Below are positions 7,948-28,562 of a stretch of 29,951 nt of DNA, one piece after another. Each line of letters starts with the position of its first letter. Within the stretch, counting starts at the first letter, position 1. The notes under the pieces are model-generated. The model was not told where the DNA came from, did not search any database, and was given only the letters and a program-made list of their open reading frames with translations. The position numbers and the translations under genes were made by a program. Origin of the DNA: an uncultured Clostridium sp. GTDB lineage: Bacteria; Bacillota; Clostridia; Lachnospirales; Lachnospiraceae. The DNA lies in assembly GCA_900547035.1 (NCBI GenBank), contig URFM01000044.1, positions 1-29,951 of the forward strand. The letters run 5' to 3'.

Positions 7948-8716
7948 GATCCGGCGGATGTATACGGGCTTTCTCATTGCCGCTGTCATCCTCTTTGTGG
8001 TGTGCAGCGTTCTCACGGAATTTAACCCCATGACCCTCATTGCCGACGGGGACGCCTTCTGGGAATTTATTACCCAGGACTTCCTGCCTCCCGCTCTTCC
8101 CAAGGCCAGCCGCATACCCGGGATTTTCTCCAGCATCCTGGTTACCCTGGCTCTTGCCATGTCCTCCACCACCGTGGCCGCGGTCCTGGCATTTTTCGTC
8201 TCCCTCTTTGGAAGCGAAAAAGTCTCTCCCTTCCCCAGGGCAGCCAAAGCCGTCCGGGGTTTTGCCACCTTCCTGCGCAACATTCCGGCCCTGGTATGGG
8301 CCTTCATCCTCTTCTCCTCTCTGGGCATCGGCACCGGCGTAGGATTTGTGGCCCTGTGCATCACCAGCTTTGCCTTTATGGTGCGGGCCTTCGTGGAGAC
8401 CATGGAAGACGTATCCCAGGACTGCGTGGAGAGCCTTCAGGCCGTAGGCGCCACCTTTCCCCAGAGAGTCAGCCAGGCCATCCTGCCCTCCTGTCTGAGC
8501 GGATTCCTCTCCTGGTTCCTTTACTGCGTGGAGGTCAATATCCGCGCCTCCACCATCGTAGGCATGGTAGGAGGCGGCGGCGTGGGACTCACCCTCTTCT
8601 CCTATATCAAAAGCTTCCGCTATGACATTGCCCTGACCATCATCCTGATGATTGCGGCTATGGTGATTTTAGTGGACCAGATTACAAATAAACTTCGAAA
8701 GGAGCTCTTAAAATGA
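7916..8716 (+). CDS. phnE: Phosphonate ABC transporter permease (intact copy)
   Basis: The 266-aa membrane protein has about six hydrophobic segments and the complete permease coupling loop ESLQAVGATFPQRVSQAILP, which corresponds to the EAA motif. It is followed by VEVNIRASTIVGMVGGGGVG, the conserved PhnE C-terminal motif. The start at 7916 is chosen for the GGGAGG at 7902-7907. An in-frame ATG further upstream lies inside phnC and has no site. The gene overlaps the next permease by ATGA. Because the second permease is broken, this copy may have to work as a homodimer. Confidence 0.93.
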   Translation: MTRKIPLTALEIRRMYTGFLIAAVILFVVCSVLTEFNPMTLIADGDAFWEFITQDFLPPALPKASRIPGIFSSILVTLALAMSSTTVAAVLAFFVSLFGSEKVSPFPRAAKAVRGFATFLRNIPALVWAFILFSSLGIGTGVGFVALCITSFAFMVRAFVETMEDVSQDCVESLQAVGATFPQRVSQAILPSCLSGFLSWFLYCVEVNIRASTIVGMVGGGGVGLTLFSYIKSFRYDIALTIILMIAAMVILVDQITNKLRKELLK

Positions 8717-9347
8717 TGCAGCAGGATTTGGCAGAGTGCGCCCTGCCCCTTAAATCTCAGAAAACAGCCGCAAAGGGTACGTCCCGTATTCCGGTAACAT
8801 GCAGACAGAGAAATCCTTTCATTCCCAGATTTCTCTTCGGGACCGTCATCCTTACCATCCTAAGCCTTCTCTACCTGGAAATCGACTGGATTAAAATGTT
8901 CTTTCGCATCCCGGAAATCGGCGTGGTATTCTGGGAACTGGCCCACCTGGACTTTTCCAATATGGATCTGATTGCCTCCTCTCTGATAGAAACCATCTCC
9001 ATCGCGGTTTTGTCCCTGCGCTACAGCCTGGTACTTGGAATCTTTTTTGGAATGCTGGCAGCCCGGAATATTTTCCGGATTCCGGCTCTATCGGTGTTTA
9101 CCCAGTCTTTCTTCACCTTCCCGCCGCTCTCTCCCAGATTGTGGCCTGGGCCGGCATGCGCCTGGAGACCAATTTTTCCGAATGCGCCATTTTAGGCATG
9201 GTAGGTGCCGGCGGCGTGGGATACGTCATCTCCAACAGTCTCCAGGGATACGACTACGGCACCGCCGGGGTCGCCATTCTTCTGGTCTTTCTGGTGGCTT
9301 ATTTCATTGAGCGGATTTTTGTGAGGATTAAGAAAAAGTTCTATTGA
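8713..9347 (+). pseudogene. phnE: Second phosphonate permease gene, frameshifted with an internal deletion
   Basis: Residues up to about 135 (8713-9120) look like a PhnE N-terminal half, including IETISIAVLSLRYSLVLGIF and GMLAARNIFRIPALSVF. After SFFTF the reading frame becomes nonsense and stops at 9195. The next frame resumes with LPAALSQIVAWAGMRLETNF, then CAILGMVGAGGVGYVISNS, a normal PhnE C-terminus, and ends at 9347. Aligned with the intact phnE upstream, about 70 residues are missing between FFTF and LPAALS. These include the EAA-type coupling loop. The frame offset requires a deletion of 3n+1 nt, for example 208 or 211 nt. The result cannot be rescued by a simple frameshift. A real deletion or an assembly error are both possible. 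Confidence 0.85.
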
Positions 9348-9433: not shown

Positions 9434-10054
9434 TTATATGACTTTCACCTTTAACAGCATCTTCCCGATCACCGCCACCAGCACCGCCGCCGCAATGGCC
9501 TCCGGTATGCCGGCCGCCGTGACGGTTCCCATAATCAAGCCAAATACAGCCTCAAAAGCCACCTGTCTGGCCTGAGCGTATTCTCTGGCAAACATCACAT
9601 AGATGCTTCCCATCACCGTACCCGTGTTAATCATGGAACCTACAAAACCTGTAACCGCCAGGGAAACGCCTTCATTTACCTTAATTTTCCGAAGGAGAAT
9701 CCACATCCATCCGGCTCCCAGTCCGATGAGAATCCGGCAGCCTACGGAGATCCACACCGCTTTCAGAGCTCCGATGATTCCGCTCATGCTCATAAAGGGC
9801 GAAAATGCAAAGGACGTCAGGGTTGGCGCGATGGTATTGCTCACCAGAGAGCAGACGCCAAAGGTAGCCCCCAGAATCACTCCGGCCCAGGGTCCAAGCA
9901 AAATAGCCCCCAAAATCACCGGGATATGCACGGTTGTCGCCTTAATAATGGGGAGCTGAATCATTCCCAGAGGCGTATTGGCCAGCAAAATGACCACAGC
10001 CATCATAAGTGCGACACTTGCAAGATAACGGGTGTCTTTCTTTCTCTTATTCAA
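9434..10054 (-). CDS. ECF transporter S component (pantothenate-type vitamin uptake likely)
   Basis: The 206-aa protein is almost wholly hydrophobic with about six membrane segments. It has the conserved ECF_trnsprt pattern: KATTVHIPVILGAILLGPWA, then GATFGVCSLVSNTIAP and FSPFMS. S components bind a vitamin and use a shared ECF energy module encoded elsewhere. The sequence most resembles the pantothenate-type group, but the substrate is not proven. The start is a TTG at 10054, supported by AGGAGG 8 nt upstream. The N-terminus then reads as a short basic stretch before the first membrane segment. It is the only minus-strand gene here. Its leader holds a strong promoter and a conserved terminator-like RNA element. 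Confidence 0.85.
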   Translation of the reverse strand: MNKRKKDTRYLASVALMMAVVILLANTPLGMIQLPIIKATTVHIPVILGAILLGPWAGVILGATFGVCSLVSNTIAPTLTSFAFSPFMSMSGIIGALKAVWISVGCRILIGLGAGWMWILLRKIKVNEGVSLAVTGFVGSMINTGTVMGSIYVMFAREYAQARQVAFEAVFGLIMGTVTAAGIPEAIAAAVLVAVIGKMLLKVKVI

Positions 10055-10135
10055 TTTTTCTTCCTCCTTGCTACTGTTCTTTTCCTAAGATACAATGCAA
10101 CTTTGTCAGGACGGTGGCTTGGGACATCCGATGTG

Positions 10136-10219
10136 AAAAAAGGGGCAAAAGCATGCTTATAAGCAAGCTTAACGCCTGTTTTTGCCCCTTTTTTCCCGCC
10201 GTCCTTAACTTAGACGTCT
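10136..10219 (-). ncRNA. Structured RNA element, copy 1 (leader of ECF gene; unknown family)
   Basis: Read on the minus strand, AGACGT (10219-10214) is followed by AGTTAAGGACGGCGGG. A perfect 15-bp stem comes next (AAAAAAGGGGCAAAA, 10194-10180, with TTTTGCCCCTTTTTT, 10150-10136). Its 29-nt loop carries ACAGGCG and an inner hairpin, GCTT-GCTTAT-AAGC. The 3' arm ends in six U, like a terminator. A promoter ends 2 nt before the element, so a free RNA of about 80 nt is possible. The same element occurs at 13613-13696 with compensatory stem changes. In this copy the conserved AGGACGGCGG could also pair with CCACCGTCCT downstream (+ strand about 10109-10118), making an alternative outer stem suited to attenuation. 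Confidence 0.7.
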
Positions 10220-10221
10220 TG

Positions 10222-10251
10222 ATTATAAACACTATCCACACCCCTGGTCAA
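10222..10251 (-). promoter_or_regulatory. Promoter for the ECF gene / structured RNA
   Basis: On the minus strand: TTGACC (10251-10246), an 18-bp spacer and a perfect TATAAT (10227-10222). Predicted start is near 10215. A DnaA-box-like 9-mer (CTATCCACA on the + strand, 10232-10240) lies between the two hexamers. Confidence 0.75.
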
Positions 10252-10513
10252 CCTTATTTTTGTTAATTTACATAAGTTTATCCACAATTTGTGGATAAAT
10301 TGTGGATAAGTGGGAGTAAGGCGCCTCTATTTCCACAACCAATCAGAAAAAACCTTGATTTTACAGCAAATTTTCCACTGTGCATAACTTATTTTTGTAA
10401 ACACTCCTCTTTTGTGGATAAAATCCTTGTCCACAATCTACCCACATTCTATCCACAGGGATTCCACAAACCCCTCCACACCGTTTTCTACATTCTTTTT
10501 AAACTTATCCACA
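10232..10513. other. oriC: Replication origin, DnaA-box cluster upstream of dnaA
   Basis: Perfect TTATNCACA boxes are at 10278-10286 (+), 10290-10298 (-), 10301-10309 (-), 10379-10387 (-), 10413-10421 (-) and 10505-10513 (+). Boxes with one mismatch are at 10232-10240, 10427-10435 and 10449-10457 (+). The dense cluster directly upstream of dnaA is the usual first half of a Firmicute origin. It may also autoregulate dnaA. The 566-nt gap 10055-10620 contains only this cluster, the ECF leader and the dnaA promoter. Confidence 0.93.
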
Positions 10514-10545
10514 ATCCCTCTCCGGAAGGAATTTTGCTATTTTCA

Positions 10546-10574
10546 TTGAAAAACTTCCCTCTTTAGTATAAAAT
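10546..10574 (+). promoter_or_regulatory. dnaA promoter
   Basis: TTGAAA (10546-10551) with TAAAAT (10569-10574) at 17-bp spacing, or TATAAA (10567-10572) at 15 bp. The DnaA boxes end 32 bp upstream. AGGAG (10609-10613) precedes the ATG at 10621. Confidence 0.65.
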
Positions 10575-10620
10575 AGATTTAGATTGGGCTTTTCTGCAAT
10601 ATAGTTTTAGGAGACTGAAA

Positions 10621-11991
10621 ATGATCGATAAAATAAAAGAAAATTGGGATCAGATCTTATTAAATTTGAAGGAAGAGCATGAAATCATGGACGTTTCATT
10701 TAAAACATGGCTTCTGCCCTTAAAACCCTACTCCTTCAAAAACAATACATTGACCATCATTGTTCCGGAGCAGACCTTCCTCACCTTTGTAAAGCGAAAA
10801 TACGGCCTTCCTTTGATGGTCACGGTTTCCGAATTTCTCGGAGTAGAGTGTAAAATTGATTTTCAGCTGAAGGATACCGTAGAGGAAGATTCACCTGCCA
10901 AGCAGCCGCAGCTGATTGAAAAAAATATGAACGTGGTAAGCCCCCAGGTAATTCAGAGCGCCAACTTAAATCCAAAGTACACCTTTGACACCTTCGTCGT
11001 TGGCTCCAACAACAATCTGGCCCATGCGGCGGCCCTGGCAGTAGCGGAATCTCCCGGTGAAATTTACAATCCTCTTTTTATTTACGGAGGCGTGGGTCTT
11101 GGAAAAACACACCTGATGCATGCCATCGCTCACTTCATTTTAAAAAACACCCCGGATGCGAAAATTCTTTACGTCACCTCTGAAACCTTTACCAATGAGC
11201 TGATTGACGCCATCCGGAATAAGAACAATACCACCACCACGGAATTTCGTGAAAAATACCGCAACAATGATGTCCTGCTCATCGACGATATCCAGTTCAT
11301 CATCGGAAAAGAGAGTACCCAGGAGGAGTTCTTCCATACCTTCAACACCCTCTATGAGTCGAAAAAGCAGATTATCATCTCCTCCGATAAACCGCCGAAA
11401 GAGATTGAAACCCTGGAGGAACGGCTCCGCTCCCGCTTTGAGTGGGGTCTGACCGTGGACATCCAGTCCCCGGATTATGAAACCAGAATGGCGATTTTAA
11501 GAAAAAAAGAAGAACTGGAAGGCTACAACATTGACAATGAAGTAATAACCTACATTGCCACCAACATTAAATCTAATATCCGGGAGCTGGAAGGCGCCTT
11601 AACTAAGGTTATGGCCTACTCCCGGTTAAACAAGTGTGAGATTAATTTGAAGATGGCGGAGGAAGCCTTAAAGGATATTATCTCCCCCGGTGCTCAGCGG
11701 GAAGTGACGCCCGAACTGATTATTCAGATCGTGGCCGAGCATTTCGGCCTGACTCCTCAGGATATCGCATCCCAGAAGAGGACCAAGGAAATCGTCTACC
11801 CCAGACAAATTGCCATGTATTTATGCCGCGACATGCTGGCCACTCCCCTTCAGACCATCGGAAGCTTCCTGGGCGGCAGGGACCACACCACCATCATTCA
11901 CGGCGCGGACAAAATCTCCTCTGACCTGAAAAAAGACGAAACCCTGAAAAATACCATAGAGATACTGAAAAAGAAAATTAATCCACAATAA
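10621..11991 (+). CDS. dnaA: Chromosomal replication initiator protein DnaA
   Basis: The 456-aa protein binds DnaA boxes, oligomerises with ATP and opens the origin. An N-terminal helicase-loading domain (about 1-85) is followed by a short linker. The AAA+ core starts at NPKYTFDTFVVGSNN, with Walker A GGVGLGKTH (Lys162, Thr163) and Walker B LLIDDIQFI. The C-terminal DNA-binding domain has PRQIAMYLCRDML and the signature GGRDHTTIIHG (Asp421 to Gly427). Length and architecture are normal. A DnaA-box-like sequence overlaps the last codons (11979-11987), so the gene lies between two box clusters. Confidence 0.98.
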   Translation: MIDKIKENWDQILLNLKEEHEIMDVSFKTWLLPLKPYSFKNNTLTIIVPEQTFLTFVKRKYGLPLMVTVSEFLGVECKIDFQLKDTVEEDSPAKQPQLIEKNMNVVSPQVIQSANLNPKYTFDTFVVGSNNNLAHAAALAVAESPGEIYNPLFIYGGVGLGKTHLMHAIAHFILKNTPDAKILYVTSETFTNELIDAIRNKNNTTTTEFREKYRNNDVLLIDDIQFIIGKESTQEEFFHTFNTLYESKKQIIISSDKPPKEIETLEERLRSRFEWGLTVDIQSPDYETRMAILRKKEELEGYNIDNEVITYIATNIKSNIRELEGALTKVMAYSRLNKCEINLKMAEEALKDIISPGAQREVTPELIIQIVAEHFGLTPQDIASQKRTKEIVYPRQIAMYLCRDMLATPLQTIGSFLGGRDHTTIIHGADKISSDLKKDETLKNTIEILKKKINPQ

Positions 11992-12268
11992 CCTGTTTAT
12001 ACCCTGTGGACAGGCTGTGGATAAGAAAGGAAACTGTTAATCCTTCAGAACGTTTTTTAGCATCCTGTGGACAACCCTCCGGTTTTCCCTTTTTTTCAGC
12101 CAGGATTTCCACATCCTTTTTAACAGGTTCAAATCCTTTATTTTCAGGTTCAGAAGGACTTTTACACAAACCCACAGCCCCTACGGCGATTGCTACGAAA
12201 ATTTACTATTTATTTCTATCTCACAGGCATTCATAATCCACATCAACTGAGAAAGGAAGTTATCAACA
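11979..12268. other. oriC: Second origin region between dnaA and dnaN (DnaA boxes and AT-rich stretch)
   Basis: The 280-nt gap has no gene. It holds a perfect box at 12016-12024 (-). One-mismatch boxes are at 11979-11987 (+), 12066-12074 (-), 12160-12168 (+), 12234-12242 (+) and 12260-12268 (+). The AT-rich segment at about 12195-12236, after a GC-rich patch (12168-12190), is a candidate unwinding element. By analogy with Bacillus subtilis, box clusters on both sides of dnaA form a bipartite origin. The exact opening site is inferred. Confidence 0.75.
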
Positions 12269-12271
12269 ATC

Positions 12272-13393
12272 ATGAAGCTGAAATTTCAAAAAGACGCTTT
12301 AGTTAACGGCATTAATATTGTAATGAAAGCAGTTCCCTCCAAAACTACCATGTCCATTTTAGAATGTATTCTGGTAGATGCCAGCGGAAGCGAAATCAAG
12401 CTGACAGGAAATGATATGGAACTTGGAATTGAAACAAAAGTGGAAGGAGATATTTTAGAACATGGACGGATTGCCCTGGATGCGAAACTTTTTTCTGAAA
12501 TTACCAGAAGACTTTCCAGCGAAAGCGCTGCCGAGGTAATCATTGAATCCGACAGCCAGCTAAGCACCACCATCCGATGCGAAAATTCTATATTTAAGAT
12601 TCAGGGACGGGACGGCGAGGAATTTGCCTACCTTCCATATATTGAAAAGGACCGTTATATCTGTCTGTCGCAATTTACCTTGAGAGAAGTGATCCAACAG
12701 ACCATCTTCTCCATATCTCCTAATGACAGCAACAAGATGATGTCCGGCGAACTTTTTGAGGTCAATGAAAATCAGCTTCAGGTGGTTTCTTTGGACGGTC
12801 ACCGGATTTCGATCCGGCGGGTTCGCCTGAAAGATCATTACGATGACATGAAAGTCATTGTGCCTGGAAAAACATTAAGTGAAGTCAGCAAGATTTTAAG
12901 CGGAGATAATGAGAAGGAAGTTCTGATTTACTTCAGCGAAAACCATATTCTCTTTGAATTTGACAACACCGTAGTAATTTCACGTTTGATTGAGGGAGAT
13001 TATTTTCGCATCAGTCAGATGCTTTCCAGCGATTACGAGACCAAGGTAACCATTAATAAGAAGGAATTTCTGGATTCCATTGAACGGGCAACCATCCTGA
13101 TCCGGGAAAATGACAAAAAACCGCTGATTATTAATATTACGGAACACACCATGGAATTGAAGCTGAATTCCAGCTTTGGTTCTATGAATGCCGAACTTTT
13201 CATCCATAAAACAGGTAAGGATATTATGATTGGATTTAATCCCAAGTTCCTCATCGATGCTCTGCGGGCCATCGACGGGGAGGAAATCAGTATTTATCTG
13301 ATGAATCCCAAGTCCCCCTGTTTCATAAAGGATGACGAGGAGACCTACATTTATCTGATTCTGCCGGTAAATTTTAACGCGGCAGCCGTTTAA
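12272..13393 (+). CDS. dnaN: DNA polymerase III beta subunit (sliding clamp)
   Basis: The 373-aa protein has the three-domain clamp fold, recognisable from MKLKFQKDALVNGINIVMKA, SKTTMSILECIL, EFAYLPYI, VSLDGHRISIRR and the C-terminal ending YIYLILPVNFN. As a ring dimer it holds polymerase and other proteins on DNA. AAAGGAAG precedes the ATG. The TAATG stop leads straight into the small S4 gene, so the two are probably coupled. Confidence 0.98.
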   Translation: MKLKFQKDALVNGINIVMKAVPSKTTMSILECILVDASGSEIKLTGNDMELGIETKVEGDILEHGRIALDAKLFSEITRRLSSESAAEVIIESDSQLSTTIRCENSIFKIQGRDGEEFAYLPYIEKDRYICLSQFTLREVIQQTIFSISPNDSNKMMSGELFEVNENQLQVVSLDGHRISIRRVRLKDHYDDMKVIVPGKTLSEVSKILSGDNEKEVLIYFSENHILFEFDNTVVISRLIEGDYFRISQMLSSDYETKVTINKKEFLDSIERATILIRENDKKPLIINITEHTMELKLNSSFGSMNAELFIHKTGKDIMIGFNPKFLIDALRAIDGEEISIYLMNPKSPCFIKDDEETYIYLILPVNFNAAAV

Positions 13394-13404
13394 TGGGAGG
13401 AACA

Positions 13405-13614
13405 ATGGAAACAATTAAGCTTAGAGGCGAATATATTAAGCTGGGCCAGGCTCTGAAAGCGGCTGGCCTGGCGGAAACCGGTGTGGATGCGAAATATGCC
13501 GTAGAAGACGGCCTGGTTCAGGTCAATGGCCAGGTGGTTCTCCAGAGAGGCAAAAAGCTGGTAGGCGGCGATGTGGTGACCTATCATGGGGAGACGATTC
13601 AAATTGTAAACTAG
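13405..13614 (+). CDS. yaaA: S4 domain RNA-binding protein, YaaA type
   Basis: This 69-aa protein is almost only an S4 domain: EYIKLGQALKAAGLAETG, VEDGLVQVNGQVVLQRGKKL and GDVVTYHGETIQI. It is the small S4 protein usually found between dnaN and recF in Firmicutes; its role is not well known. The start at 13405 is preferred over 13393 because GGGAGG (13395-13400) lies 4 nt before it. The upstream ATG overlaps the dnaN stop and has no site. Its stop codon touches the second copy of the structured RNA element. Confidence 0.9.
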   Translation: METIKLRGEYIKLGQALKAAGLAETGVDAKYAVEDGLVQVNGQVVLQRGKKLVGGDVVTYHGETIQIVN

Positions 13615-13696
13615 ACGTAACAGTTCAGGACGGCGGGAAAACAAGGGTAAGAACAGACGCCAGACTTGTTTGTAAGTTTGCCATTACCCTTGTTTT
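13613..13696 (+). ncRNA. Structured RNA element, copy 2 (between S4/yaaA and recF)
   Basis: AGACGT (from 13613), then AGTTCAGGACGGCGGG, then a perfect 13-bp stem (AAAACAAGGGTAA, 13638-13650, with TTACCCTTGTTTT, 13684-13696). Its loop carries ACAGACG and the inner hairpin ACTT-GTTTGT-AAGT (13664-13677). Relative to copy 1 (10219-10136), three pairs in the main stem and one in the inner stem differ in a compensatory way, while the loop blocks are nearly identical. No good promoter is visible directly upstream. It probably lies in the dnaN-recF transcript, where it could attenuate recF. Confidence 0.7.
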
Positions 13697-13720
13697 CATA
13701 TTTGAAGTAAGGAACATTCC

Positions 13721-16766
<3,046 letters not shown>

Positions 16767-20275: not shown

Positions 20276-20303
20276 TAAGTTATCTGATGTGAGGAGGGAC
20301 GCA

Positions 20304-22988
20304 ATGTTGGAAAGCTATCAAGCGCAAAATCAATATCACTCAGACTCCCCTCAAAAGGGAAACTTAAAAATCTTTTTTGGATATGCTGCGGGTGTTGGAA
20401 AGACTTATGCCATGCTGGAAGCAGCCCATCAGGCTCAAAAAAGAGGGATAGATATTGTCGTTGGCTATATTGAACGGCATACCCGCCCCGATACATTGGC
20501 ATTGCTGGAAGGGCTGGAGCAGCTACCTGAAAAAATTGTTGAATATAAAGGAATTGAGCTTAAGGAGTTGGATTTGGATGCCGCTTTACAGCGCCGTCCA
20601 ACCATTCTGCTGGTAGATGAGCTTGCCCATAGCAATGCTGCCGGCTGCCGGCATTCCAAAAGATATCAGGATGTGGAGGAATTGCTGCGGGCCGGCATCA
20701 GTGTATATACCACCGTCAATGTTCAACATCTGGAATCCTTAAATGACCTTGTGGCATCAATCACTCACGTTGCTGTCGGCGAGCGTATCCCGGATTCGGT
20801 TTTTGATTCCGCCGACCAAGTGGAGCTGGTGGATATTGAGCCGGACGACCTGATTCTGCGGCTGCAATCCGGAAAGGTATATAAAAAGCAGCAGGCTTCT
20901 CGTGCTTTGAATCACTTTTTTACGAAAGACAATTTAGCAGCTCTTCGTGAAATTGCATTGCGCCGTACCGCTGACCAATTGAGCAAAAAGGCTCAGAGAG
21001 CGGAAAATGAAATTACCGCCAAGGCAGGGGAACATATTTTGACTTGTCTTTCCAGCGCACCATCCAATGCAAAGGTGATCCGCACGGCGGCCCGGATGGC
21101 CGAGGCTTTTCATAGCGGTTTCACGGCGCTGTTTGTGGAAACTCCCGAAACCAAGGAGTTAAAAGGCGAAAGCCTGAAACGCCTTCGGGACAACATGCGT
21201 CTAGCGGAACAGTTAGGAGCGCGGATTGCCACCGTGTACGGGGATGACCCCGCTGTACAAATCGCCGAGTATGCTAAGGTCAGCGGTGTTACAAAAATCG
21301 TGCTGGGGCGAACAAACCACCACGCATCCCTTTTTATGAAAAGCAAAACACTGGTTGATCGTCTTACCGGCAGGATGGAGAATGTGGACGTTTATATTAT
21401 CCCTGATGTTCAGCCTCTATATAAGAAAAAGAGAGCTCTGCTTCACAAACCGGGACAAGAATTTAGTTGGAAGGATTTAGGAAAATCTGTCCTGCTTACC
21501 CTTGCCGCCACGGGAATAAGCTTTTTATTTTATGAACTCGGCCTGCGTGAAGCGAACATTATCATTGTCTATCTGCTGGGGGTTCTGCTTACGGCAGTTT
21601 GGACGAATGGGTATTTCTACGGGATTTTGGTTTCGCTGCTGAGCGTGGTATCCTTTAATTTTTTCTTTACAATTCCACGTTTTTCCCTGACGGCGCTTGA
21701 TCCGAACTATCCGGTTACTTTCCTGGTTATGCTGCTGGCAAGCTGCCTTTCCTGCTCTCTGGCTACCCGCGTAAAGCGGCAGGGGCGGCAATCTGCCCAA
21801 CGGGCCTATTATATGGAACTGCTGATGAACAGCAATCAGAAAATGCAGCAGGGTCAAAGTGAGCGGGAAATCATTCAGATTGCCGCGCATCAACTTCAAT
21901 CCCTTCTGGACCGTCCTGTTTTGTATGCATTGTTAGAAAAGGATCAGCAAATCCATTTCCATGTAGTGCCTGCCGCTGAAACAGAGCAGGTTATGGGCAG
22001 AATGACGGCAGAAGAACTGGGAGTGGCGGACTGGGTAGCCCAAAATGACAAGCACGCAGGCGCTACGACCAATACCTTGTCACATGCTCAAAACCTTTAT
22101 CTTTCTGTTAGAGGTAATCAGGAGGTTATGGCGGTGGTCGGCATACCAGCCAAGTTTTATCCGCCTTTGGATGCTTTTGAAAAAAACCTGATGATCGCTA
22201 TTTTGGATGAGTGCGGACTGATTTTGGAACGACGCAAGCTGCGCACCGAAAAGCAGGCAGCGGAGTTAGAAACCCAGCGTGAACAGCTGCGGGCCAACTT
22301 GCTGCGAGCCATTTCCCACGATTTGCGCACACCGCTGACTGGTATCAGCGGCAATGCCGGTGTGCTGATGAAGAAAAGTTTTTCCCTGGACGAGAGCAAA
22401 AAGCAGGAAATCTACCGTTCCATCTATGATGACGCTATGTGGCTGGTCAACCTGACAGAGAACCTGCTCTCCATCACCCGGATCGAAAACGGTACCATGC
22501 CGCTGCGGCGGGGGGCCGAGCTAATTGATGATATTTTTCACGAGGCACTTTCTCATGTAGACCGGCGAGCGGCAGAACACGAGATCCGCGTGGAGCTTGC
22601 AGACGATATGCTAATGGCCAATATGGACGCCCGCTTGATCGTACAAGTCATTATCAATATCGTGAACAACGCCATTAAGTATACGTCTGAAGGTTCGTAT
22701 ATCTGCTTGTCCGCGAAAAAGGAAAATAGTATGGTTCGTATTGAGATTGCCGATAATGGTCCGGGCATATCCGATGAAGCGAAACAAAAGCTGTTTGATA
22801 TGTTCTATACGGCGAACACCGGCAGCGCCGGGGCGGACAGCCGCCGGGGCCTTGGGCTGGGATTAAGTCTGTGCAAATCCATTGTGGAAGCGCACGGAGG
22901 TTCTATTACTGTTCATGATAACCAGCCCCACGGAGCAGTGTTCTCCTTTACATTGCCTTTAGAGGAGGTAAGGATTCAAAATGTATAA
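20304..22988 (+). CDS. kdpD: Potassium/turgor sensor histidine kinase KdpD
   Basis: This 894-aa protein matches the full E. coli architecture. The N-terminal KdpD domain has a Walker-type GYAAGVGKTYAMLEA and LLVDELAHSN. A USP-like domain follows (about 245-370), then four membrane segments (about 390-490) and a GAF-like region. The kinase core has phospho-acceptor His672 in RAISHDLRTPLTG. The ATP-binding boxes are NIVNNAIKYTSEG, IADNGPGI and GLGLGLSLCKSI. The start at 20304 follows GGAGGG by 5 nt; a GTG at 20289 is less likely. It should sense low potassium or osmotic stress and phosphorylate KdpE. The 3' end overlaps kdpE by 8 nt. Confidence 0.97.
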   Translation: MLESYQAQNQYHSDSPQKGNLKIFFGYAAGVGKTYAMLEAAHQAQKRGIDIVVGYIERHTRPDTLALLEGLEQLPEKIVEYKGIELKELDLDAALQRRPTILLVDELAHSNAAGCRHSKRYQDVEELLRAGISVYTTVNVQHLESLNDLVASITHVAVGERIPDSVFDSADQVELVDIEPDDLILRLQSGKVYKKQQASRALNHFFTKDNLAALREIALRRTADQLSKKAQRAENEITAKAGEHILTCLSSAPSNAKVIRTAARMAEAFHSGFTALFVETPETKELKGESLKRLRDNMRLAEQLGARIATVYGDDPAVQIAEYAKVSGVTKIVLGRTNHHASLFMKSKTLVDRLTGRMENVDVYIIPDVQPLYKKKRALLHKPGQEFSWKDLGKSVLLTLAATGISFLFYELGLREANIIIVYLLGVLLTAVWTNGYFYGILVSLLSVVSFNFFFTIPRFSLTALDPNYPVTFLVMLLASCLSCSLATRVKRQGRQSAQRAYYMELLMNSNQKMQQGQSEREIIQIAAHQLQSLLDRPVLYALLEKDQQIHFHVVPAAETEQVMGRMTAEELGVADWVAQNDKHAGATTNTLSHAQNLYLSVRGNQEVMAVVGIPAKFYPPLDAFEKNLMIAILDECGLILERRKLRTEKQAAELETQREQLRANLLRAISHDLRTPLTGISGNAGVLMKKSFSLDESKKQEIYRSIYDDAMWLVNLTENLLSITRIENGTMPLRRGAELIDDIFHEALSHVDRRAAEHEIRVELADDMLMANMDARLIVQVIINIVNNAIKYTSEGSYICLSAKKENSMVRIEIADNGPGISDEAKQKLFDMFYTANTGSAGADSRRGLGLGLSLCKSIVEAHGGSITVHDNQPHGAVFSFTLPLEEVRIQNV

Positions 22989-23679
22989 ACCTAAAATTCT
23001 CGTGGTAGAGGATGATCCTGCTATCACAAATTTGATTCGTACTACTTTGGATACACAGGAATATCAATATCACACCGCAAAAAACGGCGCAAGCGCGATC
23101 CTGGATGCCGTCTCCTATAATCCCGACGTTATCATTTTGGATTTGGGACTGCCTGATATGGATGGCGTGGAGATTATCAGAAAGGTTCGCGGATGGAGCA
23201 GCGTACCTATTATCATTGTGAGTGCGCGGAGCGAAGATCAGGATAAGGTGGAGGCTCTGGATGACGGAGCAGACGACTACCTGACAAAACCATTCAGCAT
23301 TGATGAATTTTTGGCCAGGCTTCGCGTGTCCCTGCGCCGCAGCCGAACCGACCAGAGTGCCGCGCCTGCCCAGTCATCCCTGTATCAAAATGGAGAATTA
23401 CGCATTGATTACGCGGCGGGATGCGCCTATATGGAAGAAGAGGAAATCCATCTGACTCCCATCGAATACAAACTCCTGTGCGTACTTGCAAAAAACACGG
23501 GAAAGGTCCTAACACACAATTATATTCTGAAAGAAGTATGGGGAACTGCCCTTACCGCCGATATTCCCTCTCTGCGCGTTTTTATGGCAACTCTGCGCAA
23601 GAAAATCGAACGCGACCCATCCTCCCCTAAGTATATCCAGACTCACATTGGCGTTGGATACCGGATGATCCGGCAATAG
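22981..23679 (+). CDS. kdpE: Response regulator KdpE
   Basis: The 232-aa OmpR/PhoB-type regulator has acidic residues in VVEDDPA, phospho-acceptor Asp54 in IILDLGLPDMDG and the conserved Lys in YLTKPF. Its winged helix ends in RVFMATLRKKIERDP and HIGVGYRM. Phosphorylated by KdpD, it should activate kdpFABC, which here starts after a terminator and so needs its own promoter. In E. coli these two genes lie downstream of kdpFABC; here they come first. Confidence 0.96.
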   Translation: MYKPKILVVEDDPAITNLIRTTLDTQEYQYHTAKNGASAILDAVSYNPDVIILDLGLPDMDGVEIIRKVRGWSSVPIIIVSARSEDQDKVEALDDGADDYLTKPFSIDEFLARLRVSLRRSRTDQSAAPAQSSLYQNGELRIDYAAGCAYMEEEEIHLTPIEYKLLCVLAKNTGKVLTHNYILKEVWGTALTADIPSLRVFMATLRKKIERDPSSPKYIQTHIGVGYRMIRQ

Positions 23680-23692
23680 ATTTCTCCTTCCT

Positions 23693-23722
23693 AAGCCGTC
23701 CGCTTTTGCGGGCGGCTTTTTT
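23693..23722 (+). terminator. Terminator between kdpDE and kdpFABC
   Basis: AAGCCGTCCGC pairs with GCGGGCGGCTT (one G-U), loop TTTT, then a run of six T. It splits the locus into a regulator unit and a transporter unit. Confidence 0.92.
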
Positions 23723-23767
23723 GTCTTGTGGTGCCTTTATGTGCTTTTAATCCTTGCCGGGAAACAT

Positions 23768-23788
23768 TAAGCGCACCTTCATCGCTTA
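23768..23788. promoter_or_regulatory. Inverted repeat in the presumed kdpFABC promoter region
   Basis: TAAGCG (23768-23773) and CGCTTA (23783-23788) form a dyad 45 bp before the first small gene. TATGAT (23789-23794) overlaps its right flank and could be a -10. A good -35 is not evident, which fits an activated promoter. Assignment to KdpE is inference. Confidence 0.35.
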
Positions 23789-23832
23789 TATGATAGGATT
23801 CTTTCCAGAAAAGCAGAGAGGAGGAAACATTT

Positions 23833-23931
23833 ATGATGGATTGTATTATGCTCGCAGTATTGGCTGGCTGTATTGGTTTCATTATCTTGCTGATTGGCTG
23901 GTGCCGGAAGCAAGTGGATAGAAGCGAGTAA
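23833..23931 (+). CDS. 32-residue single-pass membrane peptide upstream of kdpF
   Basis: This reading frame of 32 codons follows a strong AGAGGAGG (23816-23823). It encodes a start MMDCIM, a hydrophobic segment LAVLAGCIGFIILLIGW, then the charged tail CRKQVDRSE. Spacing, ribosome binding site and position 12 nt before kdpF support real translation. From memory, some other kdp operons have a similar tiny membrane protein ahead of kdpF, often with a Cys near the end of the helix, but I cannot confirm homology. It may be an extra small subunit or regulator of KdpABC. Confidence 0.65.
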   Translation: MMDCIMLAVLAGCIGFIILLIGWCRKQVDRSE

Positions 23932-23943
23932 GGAGGGAGAATC

Positions 23944-24021
23944 ATGATCGTTTTAGGAATCATCGTTTTACTGCTGGGTGTTTATTTGGTCTATGCGCTG
24001 CTTCACCCGGAAAAGTTTTAA
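23944..24021 (+). CDS. kdpF: K+-transporting ATPase small subunit KdpF
   Basis: A 25-residue peptide with a single membrane helix ends in YLVYALLHPEKF, the typical KdpF ending. KdpF stabilises the KdpABC complex in the membrane. The AGGAGGGAG ribosome binding site lies just before the ATG and kdpA follows after 21 nt. It is below the usual gene-calling length and easily missed. Confidence 0.9.
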   Translation: MIVLGIIVLLLGVYLVYALLHPEKF

Positions 24022-24042
24022 GGATAGCAGGAGGGAAACCAG

Positions 24043-25815
24043 ATGTTACAAATTATATTGACCCTTATCATTTATTTGATTCTGGTCATTCCGGCGGGTA
24101 TTTATGTATATCATGTCGCTGCCGGAAAACATACCTTTGCCGACCTGGTATTGAACCGAGTAGACGGCGTTATTTATAAAATATGCGGTATTGACCCAAA
24201 AAACAGCATGAACTGGAAAAAATACGCTGTTTCTTTGGTGGCAGCTAATGGGGTTATGATGCTGATTGGATATTTCATTTTACGGATTCAAAGCATTGGG
24301 CTGTTCAATCCGAATGGAATTGACGGCATGGAGGAATCACTTTCCTTCAATACCATCATCAGCTTTATGACCAATACTAATTTGCAGCATTATTCCGGCG
24401 AGTCAGGATTGTCCTATTTGTCACAGATGTTGGTTATCACTTTCATGATGTTTGTATCCGCCGCCAGCGGTTATGCCGCGTGTGTAGCTTTTATCCGCGG
24501 CCTAGCGGGCAGGACGAAGGATAATGTGGGCAACTTTTTTTCAGATCTCATCCGCATTACAACTCGTGTTCTGCTCCCATTTTCTATTGTCGGCGGCCTG
24601 CTGCTGGTATGGCAGGGCGTGCCGCAGAATTTTTCCGGAAATGTGGTGGTGGATACCATTGAAGGAACAAAACAGGTAATCGCCATGGGGCCGGTGGCGG
24701 CGCTGGAGATTATCAAGCATCTCGGCACGAACGGCGGCGGATTCTTGGGTGCGAACTCGGCGACGCCGATTGAGAACCCGACAATTCTTTCAAATTTGAT
24801 TGAACTGTACTCCATGATGCTTTTACCCGGAGCCTGCGTAATCACATTTGGTAAAATGGTTCGTGATCGTAAGCGTGAGCTGCCATCTGACGCTATTTCA
24901 GACGGCGCAAACGCCGCAATCTCTAAGAAAGCCAATAAAAGCCTGACGGTTTGGATGTATGGACGTGAAGGGCGCAGCATCTTCGCCGCAATGGGAATCT
25001 TGTTTCTGATTGGATTGGGAATCTGCTTCTGGGCGGAAAGTCAGGGCAACCCGGTATTGGCCGGCGCGGGACTCAGCCAATCAATGGGAAGCATGGAAGG
25101 GAAAGAAGTCCGATTCGGCGTGGCCCAGTCCTCCCTGTTTACAACAGTTACCACTTCGTTCACGACAGGTACTGTCAACAATATGCATGACACGCTGACT
25201 CCGCTGGGCGGTATGGTTCCCATGCTTCACATGATGCTCAATGTAGTATTCGGCGGCAAGGGCGTCGGCCTGATGAATATGATTACTTATGCCATTCTGG
25301 CTGTGTTCATCTGCGGTTTGATGATCGGACGCACGCCAGAGTATCTCGGCAAAAAGATTGAAGGGCGGGAGATGAAACTGGCCGCCCTGTGCATTATCAT
25401 TCATCCGTTGCTTATATTGGCTTTCTCCGCATTGGCGGTAGGTACGCAGGCAGGATTGGCTGGCATTACCAATCCGGGATATCATGGACTTTCACAGGTA
25501 CTCTATGAATTTGCCTCTTCCGCAGCCAACAACGGCTCCGGTTTTGAAGGCCTGGCGGACAACACGCTGTTTTGGAATATTACCACAGGCATCGTCATGT
25601 TTTTCGGGCGTTACCTCTCGATGGTATTGCAGCTTGCAATTGCGGGCTCGCTGATGAAAAAGCGGTTTGTCAATGAATCGGCAGGCACGCTTCATACAGA
25701 TACCGTAAGTTTTGCGGTTATTTTAGTATTTGTCGTCTATATTTTTGCAGCGCTGACCTTCTTCCCGGTGCTGGCGCTTGGCCCCGTTGCCGAACATTTG
25801 ACCCTTTGGGCATAA
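24043..25815 (+). CDS. kdpA: Potassium-transporting ATPase subunit A (K+ channel-like)
   Basis: The 590-aa membrane subunit selects and conducts K+. Four pore-loop segments are visible: TNTNLQHYSGE (Gln115, matching E. coli Gln116), GTNGGGFLGANSATPIENPT, TTSFTTGTVNNMHDTLTPLG and ASSAANNGSGFEG. The protein is about 30 residues longer than E. coli KdpA. GGAGGG lies about 6 nt before the start. kdpB follows after 12 nt. Confidence 0.97.
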   Translation: MLQIILTLIIYLILVIPAGIYVYHVAAGKHTFADLVLNRVDGVIYKICGIDPKNSMNWKKYAVSLVAANGVMMLIGYFILRIQSIGLFNPNGIDGMEESLSFNTIISFMTNTNLQHYSGESGLSYLSQMLVITFMMFVSAASGYAACVAFIRGLAGRTKDNVGNFFSDLIRITTRVLLPFSIVGGLLLVWQGVPQNFSGNVVVDTIEGTKQVIAMGPVAALEIIKHLGTNGGGFLGANSATPIENPTILSNLIELYSMMLLPGACVITFGKMVRDRKRELPSDAISDGANAAISKKANKSLTVWMYGREGRSIFAAMGILFLIGLGICFWAESQGNPVLAGAGLSQSMGSMEGKEVRFGVAQSSLFTTVTTSFTTGTVNNMHDTLTPLGGMVPMLHMMLNVVFGGKGVGLMNMITYAILAVFICGLMIGRTPEYLGKKIEGREMKLAALCIIIHPLLILAFSALAVGTQAGLAGITNPGYHGLSQVLYEFASSAANNGSGFEGLADNTLFWNITTGIVMFFGRYLSMVLQLAIAGSLMKKRFVNESAGTLHTDTVSFAVILVFVVYIFAALTFFPVLALGPVAEHLTLWA

Positions 25816-25827
25816 GGAGGAACCAAC

Positions 25828-27891
25828 ATGAGTAAAAGGAATCAGAATCTGGTTACGCCTGAAATTTTCCGCCAGGCAGTTATCGGCTCCTTTACAAAGC
25901 TGAATCCTGTTTACATGATGAAAAATCCCGTCATGTTTGTTGTGGAGATTGGCTTTTTTATCACGCTTGTACTTTCGTTTTTCCCCGGCCTGTTTGGGGA
26001 TATCAATACAGGCACAAATCTGAGAATATATAATAGTATTGTCTGCATTGTGCTGTTTATCACCGTCCTGTTCGCAAACTTTGCGGAGTCGGTAGCGGAA
26101 GGCCGGGGCAAAGCGCAGGCTGCCAGCCTGAAAAAGACCCAGAAGGATACCAAAGCCCGTTTGTTGCTGGAGAATGGTACGGAAAAGACGGTTCTGTCCA
26201 GCGAATTGAAAAAAGGCGATGTGGTTTTGGTAAAGGCTGGCGAGATTATCCCCGGTGATGGAGAAGTCATAGAGGGAATTGCTTCGGTAGACGAGTCGGC
26301 CATCACGGGTGAGTCAGCCCCGGTGGTACGGGAATCCGGCGGCGATTTCTGTTCCGTGACCGGCGGTACGACCATTGTGTCTGACTGGCTGAAAATTAGG
26401 ATCACCTCAGAGGCGGGCAACAGCTTTCTCGACCGAATGATTGCGCTGGTAGAGGGTGCGTCACGCAAAAAGACACCCAATGAGATCGCTCTCAGCACCC
26501 TGTTGGTGTCGCTGACCATTATTTTCCTGATCGTTATTGTAACGCTGTATCCCATTGGATTGTATTCCGGGGTGCAGCTCCAGACTTCAACCCTGATTGC
26601 GCTGACTGTTTGCCTAATCCCCACCACGATTGGCGGGCTTCTCTCCGCCATTGGTATTGCGGGAATGGACCGTGTAACACGGTTCAACGTCATTGCCATG
26701 TCCGGCAAGGCCGTAGAAGCCTGCGGTGATGTGGATACCATGATTCTGGATAAAACCGGCACTATCACCTACGGCAACCGGATGGCCGCTGATTTCTTCC
26801 CCGTAGGCGGTGCTTCCCGCAGCGAACTGATCCGCTGCGCCGCTTTGACTAGCCTGCATGACGATACTCCGGAGGGAAAGTCCACATTGGAGCTCGCCCG
26901 TCATCTTGGAGATAAAAGTAAGGAAATGGAAGGCGCCGAATACATTGAATTTACGGCGCAGACACGGATGAGCGGCGTGAATCTGCCTGACGGCACAAAG
27001 GTCCGTAAGGGTGCATCCGAAGCCATTGAGCAATATGTAAAATCTTTGGGTGGTGTGATTCCAGCCGATCTGCGTGAACAGGTTGATAAAATTTCCAGCC
27101 TTGGCGGTACGCCGCTGACGGTTTGCGAAAATAATCAGGTTTTGGGAGTTATCTATCTGAAAGACACTGTGAAACCCGGTATGGTGGAGCGGTTTGAGCG
27201 CCTGCGAGCCATTGGTATCAAAACCATTATGTGTACCGGCGACAATCCGCTGACCGCAGCGACCATCGCCAAAGAAGCGGGTGTGGATGGCTTTATTGCA
27301 GAATGCAAGCCAGAAGATAAGATCGATGTCATCAAAAAAGAGCAGGCAGAAGGAAAAATTGTTGCCATGACCGGCGACGGCACCAATGACGCTCCCGCTC
27401 TGGCGCAGGCGAATGTGGGCCTTGCGATGAACAGCGGTACAACTGCTGCAAAAGAAGCCGCCAATATGGTTGATCTGGACTCCGACCCCACAAAGATTTT
27501 GGAAGTCGTAGAGATCGGCAAACAGCTTCTGATTACGCGGGGAAGCCTGACGACCTTCTCCATTGCCAATGATATTGCAAAATATTTCGCCATCATTCCC
27601 GCTATGTTTATGATGGCAATTCCACAGCTGGGTGTCTTGAACATCATGCACCTGACGACGCCTTACAGTGCGATTTTGTCGGCGCTGATCTTCAACGCCA
27701 TCATTATCCCCTGCCTGATTCCCCTGGCTATGAAGGGCGTAAAATACCGGCCCATGTCCTCCGGGAAACTGTTGGCAAGAAACATGCTGATCTATGGTCT
27801 TGGCGGCGTCATAACTCCATTTGTGGGAATCAAGATCATTGATACGTTGATTGCTCCGATGCTCACAGCCATCGGCATGAGCGGATTTTAA
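25828..27891 (+). CDS. kdpB: Potassium-transporting ATPase subunit B (P-type ATPase)
   Basis: The 687-aa catalytic subunit drives high-affinity K+ import. It has the phosphorylation site DKTGT (Asp308) and the actuator motif TGES (160-163), whose Ser163 corresponds to the inhibitory phosphoserine known in E. coli. The hinge is [10 protein letters not shown]. Membrane segments and length are normal. AAGGAGG overlaps the kdpA stop. No key residue appears changed. Confidence 0.98.
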
Positions 27892-27908
27892 AGAAAGGTG
27901 GATGCGTG

Positions 27909-28562
27909 ATGAAAGGATCTGTCAAATCTGTATTACATGGTGCGCGTCAAACAATCGGCGTTACGGTTATTTTGATGCTGATCTGCGGGCTTTTGTTCCC
28001 CTGCCTGCTGACAGGGGTGTCCGCTCTGATTTTTCCCCATCAGGCAGGTGGAAATCTGCTCACTATCGATGGGCAAACGGTTGGCGCAGAATATGTAGGC
28101 CAGGAATTTACAGAAGATTATTATATGTGGAGCCGTCCATCTGCGTATCATTATAATGTTTACGCGGAAGGCAAAGATGGAGGCCGGTATTATAACGACG
28201 GAACGGAGTTTTTAGGAATTGGTTCCGGTTCTAACAACTATGCATCAACCAATCCGGCGCTGACGGAACGCGTGAAGGCGGATATCGAAGAATTTTTGGA
28301 GAAAAACCCCACAGTAAAAGGGGAGGATATTCCCACCGACTTGCTGACGGCTTCCGGCTCTGGTCTGGATCCGCACATTTCACCGGCTTCCGCTGAAATA
28401 CAGATCCCCCGGATCGCCGAAGCGTCCGGACTTAAGGAAGAAGAAATCAAAGACATTGTGTTAGAAAACACTCAGGGCAAAGTCTTTGGAATCTTTGGCG
28501 AGGAGAGAGTTAATGTGCTCAAAGTCAATATTGATATCGCACAACGAATGGGAATCTTGTAA
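27909..28562 (+). CDS. kdpC: Potassium-transporting ATPase subunit C
   Basis: The 217-aa protein has one N-terminal membrane segment (about 13-35). The soluble domain has family motifs: YMWSRPSAYHYN, GSGSNNYASTNPAL, PTDLLTASGSGLDPHISPAS and FGEERVNVLKVN. It helps couple KdpA and KdpB. The ATG at 27909 is preferred because AGGTGG (27896-27901) lies 7 nt upstream; a GTG at 27906 is an alternative. Confidence 0.96.
   Translation: MKGSVKSVLHGARQTIGVTVILMLICGLLFPCLLTGVSALIFPHQAGGNLLTIDGQTVGAEYVGQEFTEDYYMWSRPSAYHYNVYAEGKDGGRYYNDGTEFLGIGSGSNNYASTNPALTERVKADIEEFLEKNPTVKGEDIPTDLLTASGSGLDPHISPASAEIQIPRIAEASGLKEEEIKDIVLENTQGKVFGIFGEERVNVLKVNIDIAQRMGIL

Follow-up and report, generated by a model that had tools for sequence, protein, structure and literature searches.

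Two related hairpins are found in a 29,951-nucleotide stretch of DNA from an uncultured Clostridium sp. of the Lachnospiraceae (contig URFM01000044.1), which is called the window hereafter. Both are very probably degraded copies of a non-autonomous transposable element of about 153 bp, of the type known as miniature inverted-repeat transposable element (MITE), and not a riboswitch; their mover is most likely a transposase of the IS66 family. The initial annotation of the window had described the pair as a structured RNA element present twice, its compensatory base changes being taken as the hallmark of a selected RNA or of a hairpin resembling the repetitive extragenic palindromes (REPs). The first of these proposals is not supported, in view of the 8-bp target duplications, of the lack of a significant gene-orientation bias among full-length copies and of a non-significant wobble test, all detailed below. 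The second one, as well as the mention of a mobile family, comes nearer the truth, save that long terminal repeats and target duplications set the element apart from a strict REP.

Intact copies of the element measure about 153 bp, with an 18-bp terminal inverted repeat, GTAACWGTTCAGGACGGC, enclosing three hairpins. The left end, GTAACAGTTCAGGACGGCGGGAAA, is followed by hairpin A, hairpin B (CATCGGATGGACATCCGATG), hairpin C (CTTCTTG...CAAGAAG) and the right end, GCCGTCCTGAACWGTTAC. The ends read GTAAC outward, and the element is short and devoid of transposase, which is what characterizes a MITE. A set of 90 elements carrying GTAACWGTTCAGGACGGC at both ends, with at most four mismatches per end, spans 46–189 bp; 47 of these measure 152–155 bp, and the short forms of 46–70 bp retain the ends and little else.

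The flanks of these 90 elements point to transposition. The 8-bp sequences on either side are identical at seven or more of their eight positions in 38 elements, as compared to 0.7 expected from shuffled partners, and the identity is exact in 21 cases. Shifting the flanks by 1–2 bases leaves only one or two such elements. Insertion sites are rich in A and T over some 14 bp, and 72 of the 82 full-length copies that could be placed relative to mechanically called open reading frames (ORFs) lie outside them (nine inside, one unclear). A transposase made elsewhere would bind the ends and move the element, and its insertion would leave an 8-bp target duplication at AT-rich, mostly intergenic sites. 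The main insertion preference is for such AT-rich sites, some promoters among them, copy 1 of the window with its TTGACC-18-TATAAT sequence being one case. A stricter rule of insertion exactly at promoters is weakened both by this AT-richness and by the –35 spacing control described below.

The element is dispersed and often abundant. A scan of GTDB genomes with AGTTNAGGACGGCGGGAAA returned 106 stretches, often many per genome, whose titles point to other phyla in three cases, the remainder bearing Lachnospiraceae-type or unplaced Clostridia names. Exact ends, of which there are two per element, number up to 56 in one genome (G001) and 30 in another (G002); all 18 genomes counted in this way were positive, having been picked through loci that carry the element. 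Exact ends were detected in 11 of 17 genomes in the genus of G007, and in 3 of 200 in the family of G002, G002 included. In the same family, a covariance model (R1, see below) matched at E ≤1e-4 in 39 of 397 genomes, with at most seven candidates scored per genome. A class-wide draw gave matches at E ≤1e-6 in 4 of 291 genomes, and since all four had already been met in the family searches, the element is seen in one family only. A scan of viral collections with AGTTNAGGACGGCGGG returned 25 stretches, among which a single one (L017) was a true copy as judged from its fold and letters. This copy, at L017:1825-1976 on an IMG/VR contig and beside an integrase-like gene, is identical in sequence to a copy in C. 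citroniae WAL-17108 (L130), and the contig is therefore probably a prophage with a host flank.

On a single strand, the element folds into a cloverleaf of four arms, namely the terminal stem and the three hairpins; one full copy folded as single-stranded DNA has a z score of -16. Conservation of this fold was analyzed on a MAFFT alignment (A2) of 42 full-length copies, the window copies being left out; these 42 were selected among 47 elements of 150–160 bp, repeats of the same sequence and other sizes being excluded. Over the 56 pairs of the cloverleaf, 97.4% of the cells are paired, as compared to 91.3% after shuffling, and 19 pairs are changed on both sides versus 9.2. Covariation amounts to 0.191, against 0.076 for shuffled alignments and 0.024–0.055 for slid versions, and none of 500 shuffles was as high, these figures being counts and not probabilities, since the shuffles ignore kinship. 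Most of the change is held by hairpin A (13 of its 18 pairs). At the apex, the TAAG/CTTA stem is paired in 100% of the cells, with a change on both sides of one pair in 5 of the 42 sequences, and it is closed by the loop CTTG in 28 sequences, CTCG in 11, CTGG in 2 and CATG in 1. Variation extends to the terminal stem (CAGGACGGC, CACGGGGC, CAGCCATGC). In a more divergent set of 36 matches, which includes the window copies, 94.8% of the cells are paired, 40 of 44 pairs are changed on both sides and covariation reaches 0.566 (0.159 shuffled, 0.059–0.088 slid), values obtained on an alignment fitted to the model and hence biased toward it. In these divergent members, the terminal repeats change and the three-hairpin interior stays.

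The two window copies belong to this family. Both were indeed found where the initial annotation had located them, and the stem changes it had listed (A-T to C-G, G-C to A-T and C-G to T-A) are all compensated. They are not chance resemblances, as model R1, built from the 42 other copies with the window copies excluded, recovers both at E values of 6.7e-27 and 5.5e-18; many further copies with covariation exist in other genomes. The corresponding features are as follows.

10097-10215, minus strand: copy 1, matched by model R1 (88.9 bits, E 6.7e-27; fold z -5.15 at full length)
10198-10215, minus strand: left terminal repeat of copy 1, from a fuzzy search, with four mismatches to GTAACWGTTCAGGACGGC
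10135-10195, minus strand: hairpin A of copy 1 (model positions 21-81)
10097-10114, minus strand: right terminal repeat of copy 1, decayed, at the right end of the model match
10222-10251, minus strand: promoter-like site TTGACC-18-TATAAT, 6 nt before copy 1 (consensus scan, 11/12 matches; not evidence of function)
9434-10054, minus strand: substrate-specific component of an energy-coupling factor (ECF) transporter, downstream of copy 1 (PF12822, E 9.6e-19)
13617-13697, plus strand: copy 2, left end and hairpin A, matched by model R1 (61 bits, E 5.5e-18)
13617-13634, plus strand: left terminal repeat of copy 2, perfect (0 mismatches)
13637-13697, plus strand: hairpin A of copy 2 (model positions 21-81)
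13405-13614, plus strand: yaaA, S4-domain gene, its stop codon 2 nt before copy 2 (TIGR02988, 58.8 bits, below the cut-off of 84.75)
13721-14806, plus strand: recF, downstream of copy 2 (ORF, relatives found by protein search)

The core of the element had thus been correctly placed and its length underestimated, copy 1 extending to the right terminal repeat at 10097. Of the shared AGACGT block, the element begins at GT, the AGAC part being flank in both copies. The inner GCTT/AAGC hairpin proposed initially does not hold in the family, with 85.1% of cells paired and no pair changed on both sides. The statement that no riboswitch matches was borne out, since no match in the window attains the cut-off of any Rfam family and nothing in the element points to a riboswitch; the only Rfam match on the element, rejected as an assignment, is to a plastid family at 27.2 bits (cut-off 56.8), on the long hairpin. 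Over the extents first described, the two copies fold better than all of 200 shuffles (z -4.77 and -3.46). Copy 1 keeps the terminal stem and hairpin A, hairpins B and C being mostly lost. It has no recognizable target duplication (8-bp flanks identical at 3 of 8 positions), and a BLAST search with it against plasmids and phages gave no match. The right half of copy 2 is taken as lost because the continuation of the model, to 13753, enters recF and has many of its pairs broken; in the absence of a right end, no target duplication is kept in this copy.

Relatives of the host were compared at the site of copy 2. The closest RecF relative of the host among the 37 genomes searched, at 82% identity, is in G007, which carries locus L039 and is titled uncultured Enterocloster sp. 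No element was seen in the sequence before recF in 30 relatives, and model R1 has no match in their yaaA–recF gaps, the single match in these loci (L427) lying at the distal end of recF. In the window, the gap spans 106 bases; among the 30 loci, it could be delimited by parsing in five (14, 19, 19, 19 and 86 bases), the others being read by eye and most of them short, and in L424 only 76 bases are present before recF. With this site empty in the relatives seen, copy 2 is therefore an insertion not common to them. An independent, divergent copy (L276, genome G395) lies just before a dnaA-like start, as identified by eye against the DnaA of the window, with recF 3.3 kb beyond on the same contig. 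Its hairpin A is inverted relative to B and C. The yaaA–recF gap of G395 (L432) contains another hairpin-like sequence, of a different kind.

As regards the mover, GTAA ends together with 8-bp duplications define the IS66 family. Two IS66 elements are given with 8-bp duplications in the part of PMC3281130 consulted. Among related genomes, L182, L187, L188 and L202 contain IS66 elements whose ends are GTAA and whose 8-bp duplications are exact, and the IS66 ends in L202, L205 and L190 are identical to the MITE repeat at 14–15 of 18 positions, the best (15/18) being in L205. These like ends and duplications suggest that an IS66-family transposase is the likely mover. Several observations weigh against this attribution. 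The IS66 ends in L182, L187 and L188 match the MITE repeat at only 8–10 of 18 positions. A search of the collected loci for an autonomous element bearing the exact MITE repeat, taking repeats 300–6000 bp apart with matching 8-bp flanks, found none, and no IS66 domain was detected in 4 of the 12 MITE-bearing genomes tested, including G001, which has the most ends. The MITE interior is unmatched in 13 IS66 loci (best E 0.016). The complete, duplication-bearing element of L202 also has a second transposase-like frame, which we take to be ISL3-like, and the ISL3 family also makes 8-bp duplications; L205, where IS66 stands alone in 1824 bp with the closest end, has no duplication. With regard to the MITE reading itself, the conservation of the interior and the strength of its covariation exceed what a plain MITE would lead one to expect.

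This conserved fold would be kept as part of the persistence of the element, either as folded single-stranded DNA or RNA, or through correction from arm to arm of the palindromes. The latter implies that changes are copied from one palindrome arm to the other by template switching or recombination, so that covariation arises without selection and any palindromic MITE would covary. Such a process, possible if on balance not favored, is consistent with the 15 double-change events counted beside 52 one-sided or mismatched ones in clusters at least 90% identical, with the inverted hairpin A of L276, and with the existence of copies having a left-type end on both sides, for example L085 and L118. 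However, inversion concerns only 1 of 87 copies and is rejected as a common event, the apex loop and the unpaired linkers are conserved too, and G-U intermediates occur.

Another possibility, which we consider improbable, is that the element is primarily a mobile functional RNA, its cloverleaf being made as RNA and selected as a small RNA or as a leader stabilizing or regulating messages, with transposition only spreading the copies. Covariation along the whole length, an interior kept while the terminal repeats differ, and the match of a published RNA candidate, RF01699 (Clostridiales-1 RNA), to some divergent relatives would all fit. Concerning expression, strict promoters end 3–7 nt before 14 of 114 left ends as compared to 7 of 113 right ends, with 0–3 at other offsets, and short and incomplete copies lean toward the sense orientation in tandem gaps (9:3 and 13:5). 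Full-length copies in such gaps do not, with 28 sense versus 22 antisense, which is not significant. The promoter link is itself weakened by a spacing control: a –35 box stands at the right spacing in 25 of 85 TATAAT-like sites located 3–7 nt from the element, and in 9 and 15 when the spacing is set wrong in two different ways (p 0.0036 for 25 versus 9), and farther out the counts are 25, 16 and 22 of 140. Before the promoter, orientation and –35 counts, 24 of the 25 viral loci as well as L069, L070, L105 and L117 were dropped as chance matches, L083 being additionally lost where ends were required. Nor does the wobble test speak significantly for an RNA strand, wobble and A-C mismatch events within clusters numbering 23 and 17 (p 0.21; five clusters of at least three members, 56 of 81 sequences, 14 of 95 full-length elements being left out by length).

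A cis-regulatory RNA or riboswitch serving the dnaA region or transporter genes is very improbable. Copy 1 may lie in the host leader of the ECF-transporter gene, at the start of its message, and L276 stands just before a dnaA-like start, but the dispersed copies without constant orientation, the target duplications and the site of copy 2 empty in 30 relatives contradict cis-regulation as a general role, and a leader of one gene class is rejected on the same grounds, the kinds of neighboring genes not having been classified. A host leader may come to include a copy that lies beside a promoter; a single exapted copy is possible. Least probable of all is a REP or bacterial interspersed mosaic element (BIME) moved by a REP-associated tyrosine transposase (RAYT, Y1), to which the many intergenic hairpins would correspond, as REPs are short hairpins with a conserved tetranucleotide and without target duplications, whereas the present family has 18-bp terminal inverted repeats and 8-bp duplications; this rejection is based on the duplications, RAYT genes not having been searched for.

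Some divergent members of the family connect it with Clostridiales-1 RNA. Of 20 divergent loci scanned, three match RF01699, on the strand and at the place of the R1 matches: L312 at 76.3 bits (cut-off 48), L296 at 36.0 and L319 at 35.9, the latter two below the cut-off. Reciprocally, six of 25 RF01699 loci are matched by model R1 at the position of the RF01699 match itself (E <0.1), mostly through hairpin A, five of the initial 30 loci having been dropped as lying at contig ends. In the family of G002, RF01699 matches occur in 136 of 250 genomes (above the cut-off in 109), and many genomes have at least ten; none of 14 control genomes has any. Analysis of 70 RF01699 loci (L335-L404) yielded, from 48 of them, 49 elements of 182–210 bp with both ends of the form GATRYYRGGGTCAAAAG. 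Exact flanking duplications of 7 bp are present in 24 of these and of 8 bp in another 11, that is 35 of 49 as compared to 1.1 expected. These terminal inverted repeats lie beyond the Rfam model, and with the exact duplications they indicate that RF01699 marks a transposable element longer than this model. The window copies have no RF01699 match at E values up to 1, and the GATR...CATC terminal repeats of RF01699 are absent from the window's family, which ends in GTAAC. Common ancestry of the two families, rather than a shared apex hairpin alone, appears somewhat favored. A bolder proposal is that both belong to a superfamily of transposable cloverleaf elements, in which the fold would be a working part, as an RNA bound by transposase or host factor or as a recognized single-stranded DNA, and would persist through exchanges of terminal repeats and stems. 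This looks doubtful at present; if true, several of the structured RNAs proposed for gut Firmicutes would be mobile elements for which folding is important.

The Clostridiales-1 table entry in PMC2864571 reads "y n n, Clostridiales, human gut"; in the main text, the words "transposon", "mobile" and "inverted repeat" are absent, and the places with "transpos" or "repeat" concern other things. Neither a statement of RF01699 as a transposon nor a description of the window's family was found in the open literature, as far as its texts could be consulted, subscription journals, preprints and ISfinder being outside this search. The window's family may be present, unnamed, in the large body of structured-RNA candidates (thousands, some of them palindromic) that PMC8040213 reports from human microbiomes. 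It is ordinary in its mobility, unusual in its cloverleaf covarying from end to end, and probably related to RF01699, an RNA candidate that is mobile too. Compensatory base changes commonly pass for the strongest evidence that an RNA is functional. In the present case they are the mark of a transposable element, and RF01699, a published candidate that looks alike, likewise has terminal repeats and target duplications. This bears on the way structured-RNA candidates are judged in repeat-rich gut genomes. With tens of copies per genome and lineage-specific stems, the family also offers a natural system in which to ask whether palindromes covary by selection or by DNA correction from arm to arm.

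Some additional observations can be mentioned. A micro-hairpin, GTGCCC-N-GGGTAT, with a core of about 15–17 nt, is found at varying places inside the element (L055:2708, L058, L076:7082, L087:5436, L056:205 and others) and is a nested tiny insertion. A first, stricter expression missed most sites; with a widened one, 20 sites were obtained, distributed between the apex arm of A (7), the loop of B (8) and the linker between C and the terminal stem P1 (1), with 4 unassigned, both orientations occurring within the loop of B. Elsewhere in the window, the second permease of a phosphonate-type ATP-binding cassette transporter, at 8713-9310, seems interrupted (two ORFs, 8713-9195 and 9035-9310, lie in different frames), beside PhnD- and PhnE-like neighbors. 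The region 20289-28562 encodes a KdpD-like sensor kinase, then a response regulator, followed by what are presumably the potassium-pump-like genes kdpA, kdpB and kdpC.

When compared to known systems, the window's family thus resembles several of them in part. It shares with REP and BIME sequences the repeated intergenic hairpin, and differs from them by its target duplications and 18-bp terminal repeats. With IS66 insertion sequences, it has in common the GTAA ends, the 8-bp duplications and the close similarity of the ends in L202, L205 and L190, whereas it has no transposase, no IS66-derived interior was seen in it, and no exact autonomous partner was found. Clostridiales-1 RNA is similarly dispersed in many copies per genome, with terminal inverted repeats, 7- or 8-bp duplications and a hairpin with a like apex, its ends being GATRYYRGGGTCAAAAG instead of GTAAC. 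The bacterial MITEs QMITE2 and Chunjie, as described in the part of PMC10969869 consulted, are short and dispersed, with terminal inverted repeats, flanking direct repeats, a mostly intergenic location and predicted stem-loop transcripts, and the window's family has all these features. What distinguishes it from them is a fold that covaries across lineages over its whole length, together with a three-hairpin interior that stays while the terminal repeats of divergent members change.

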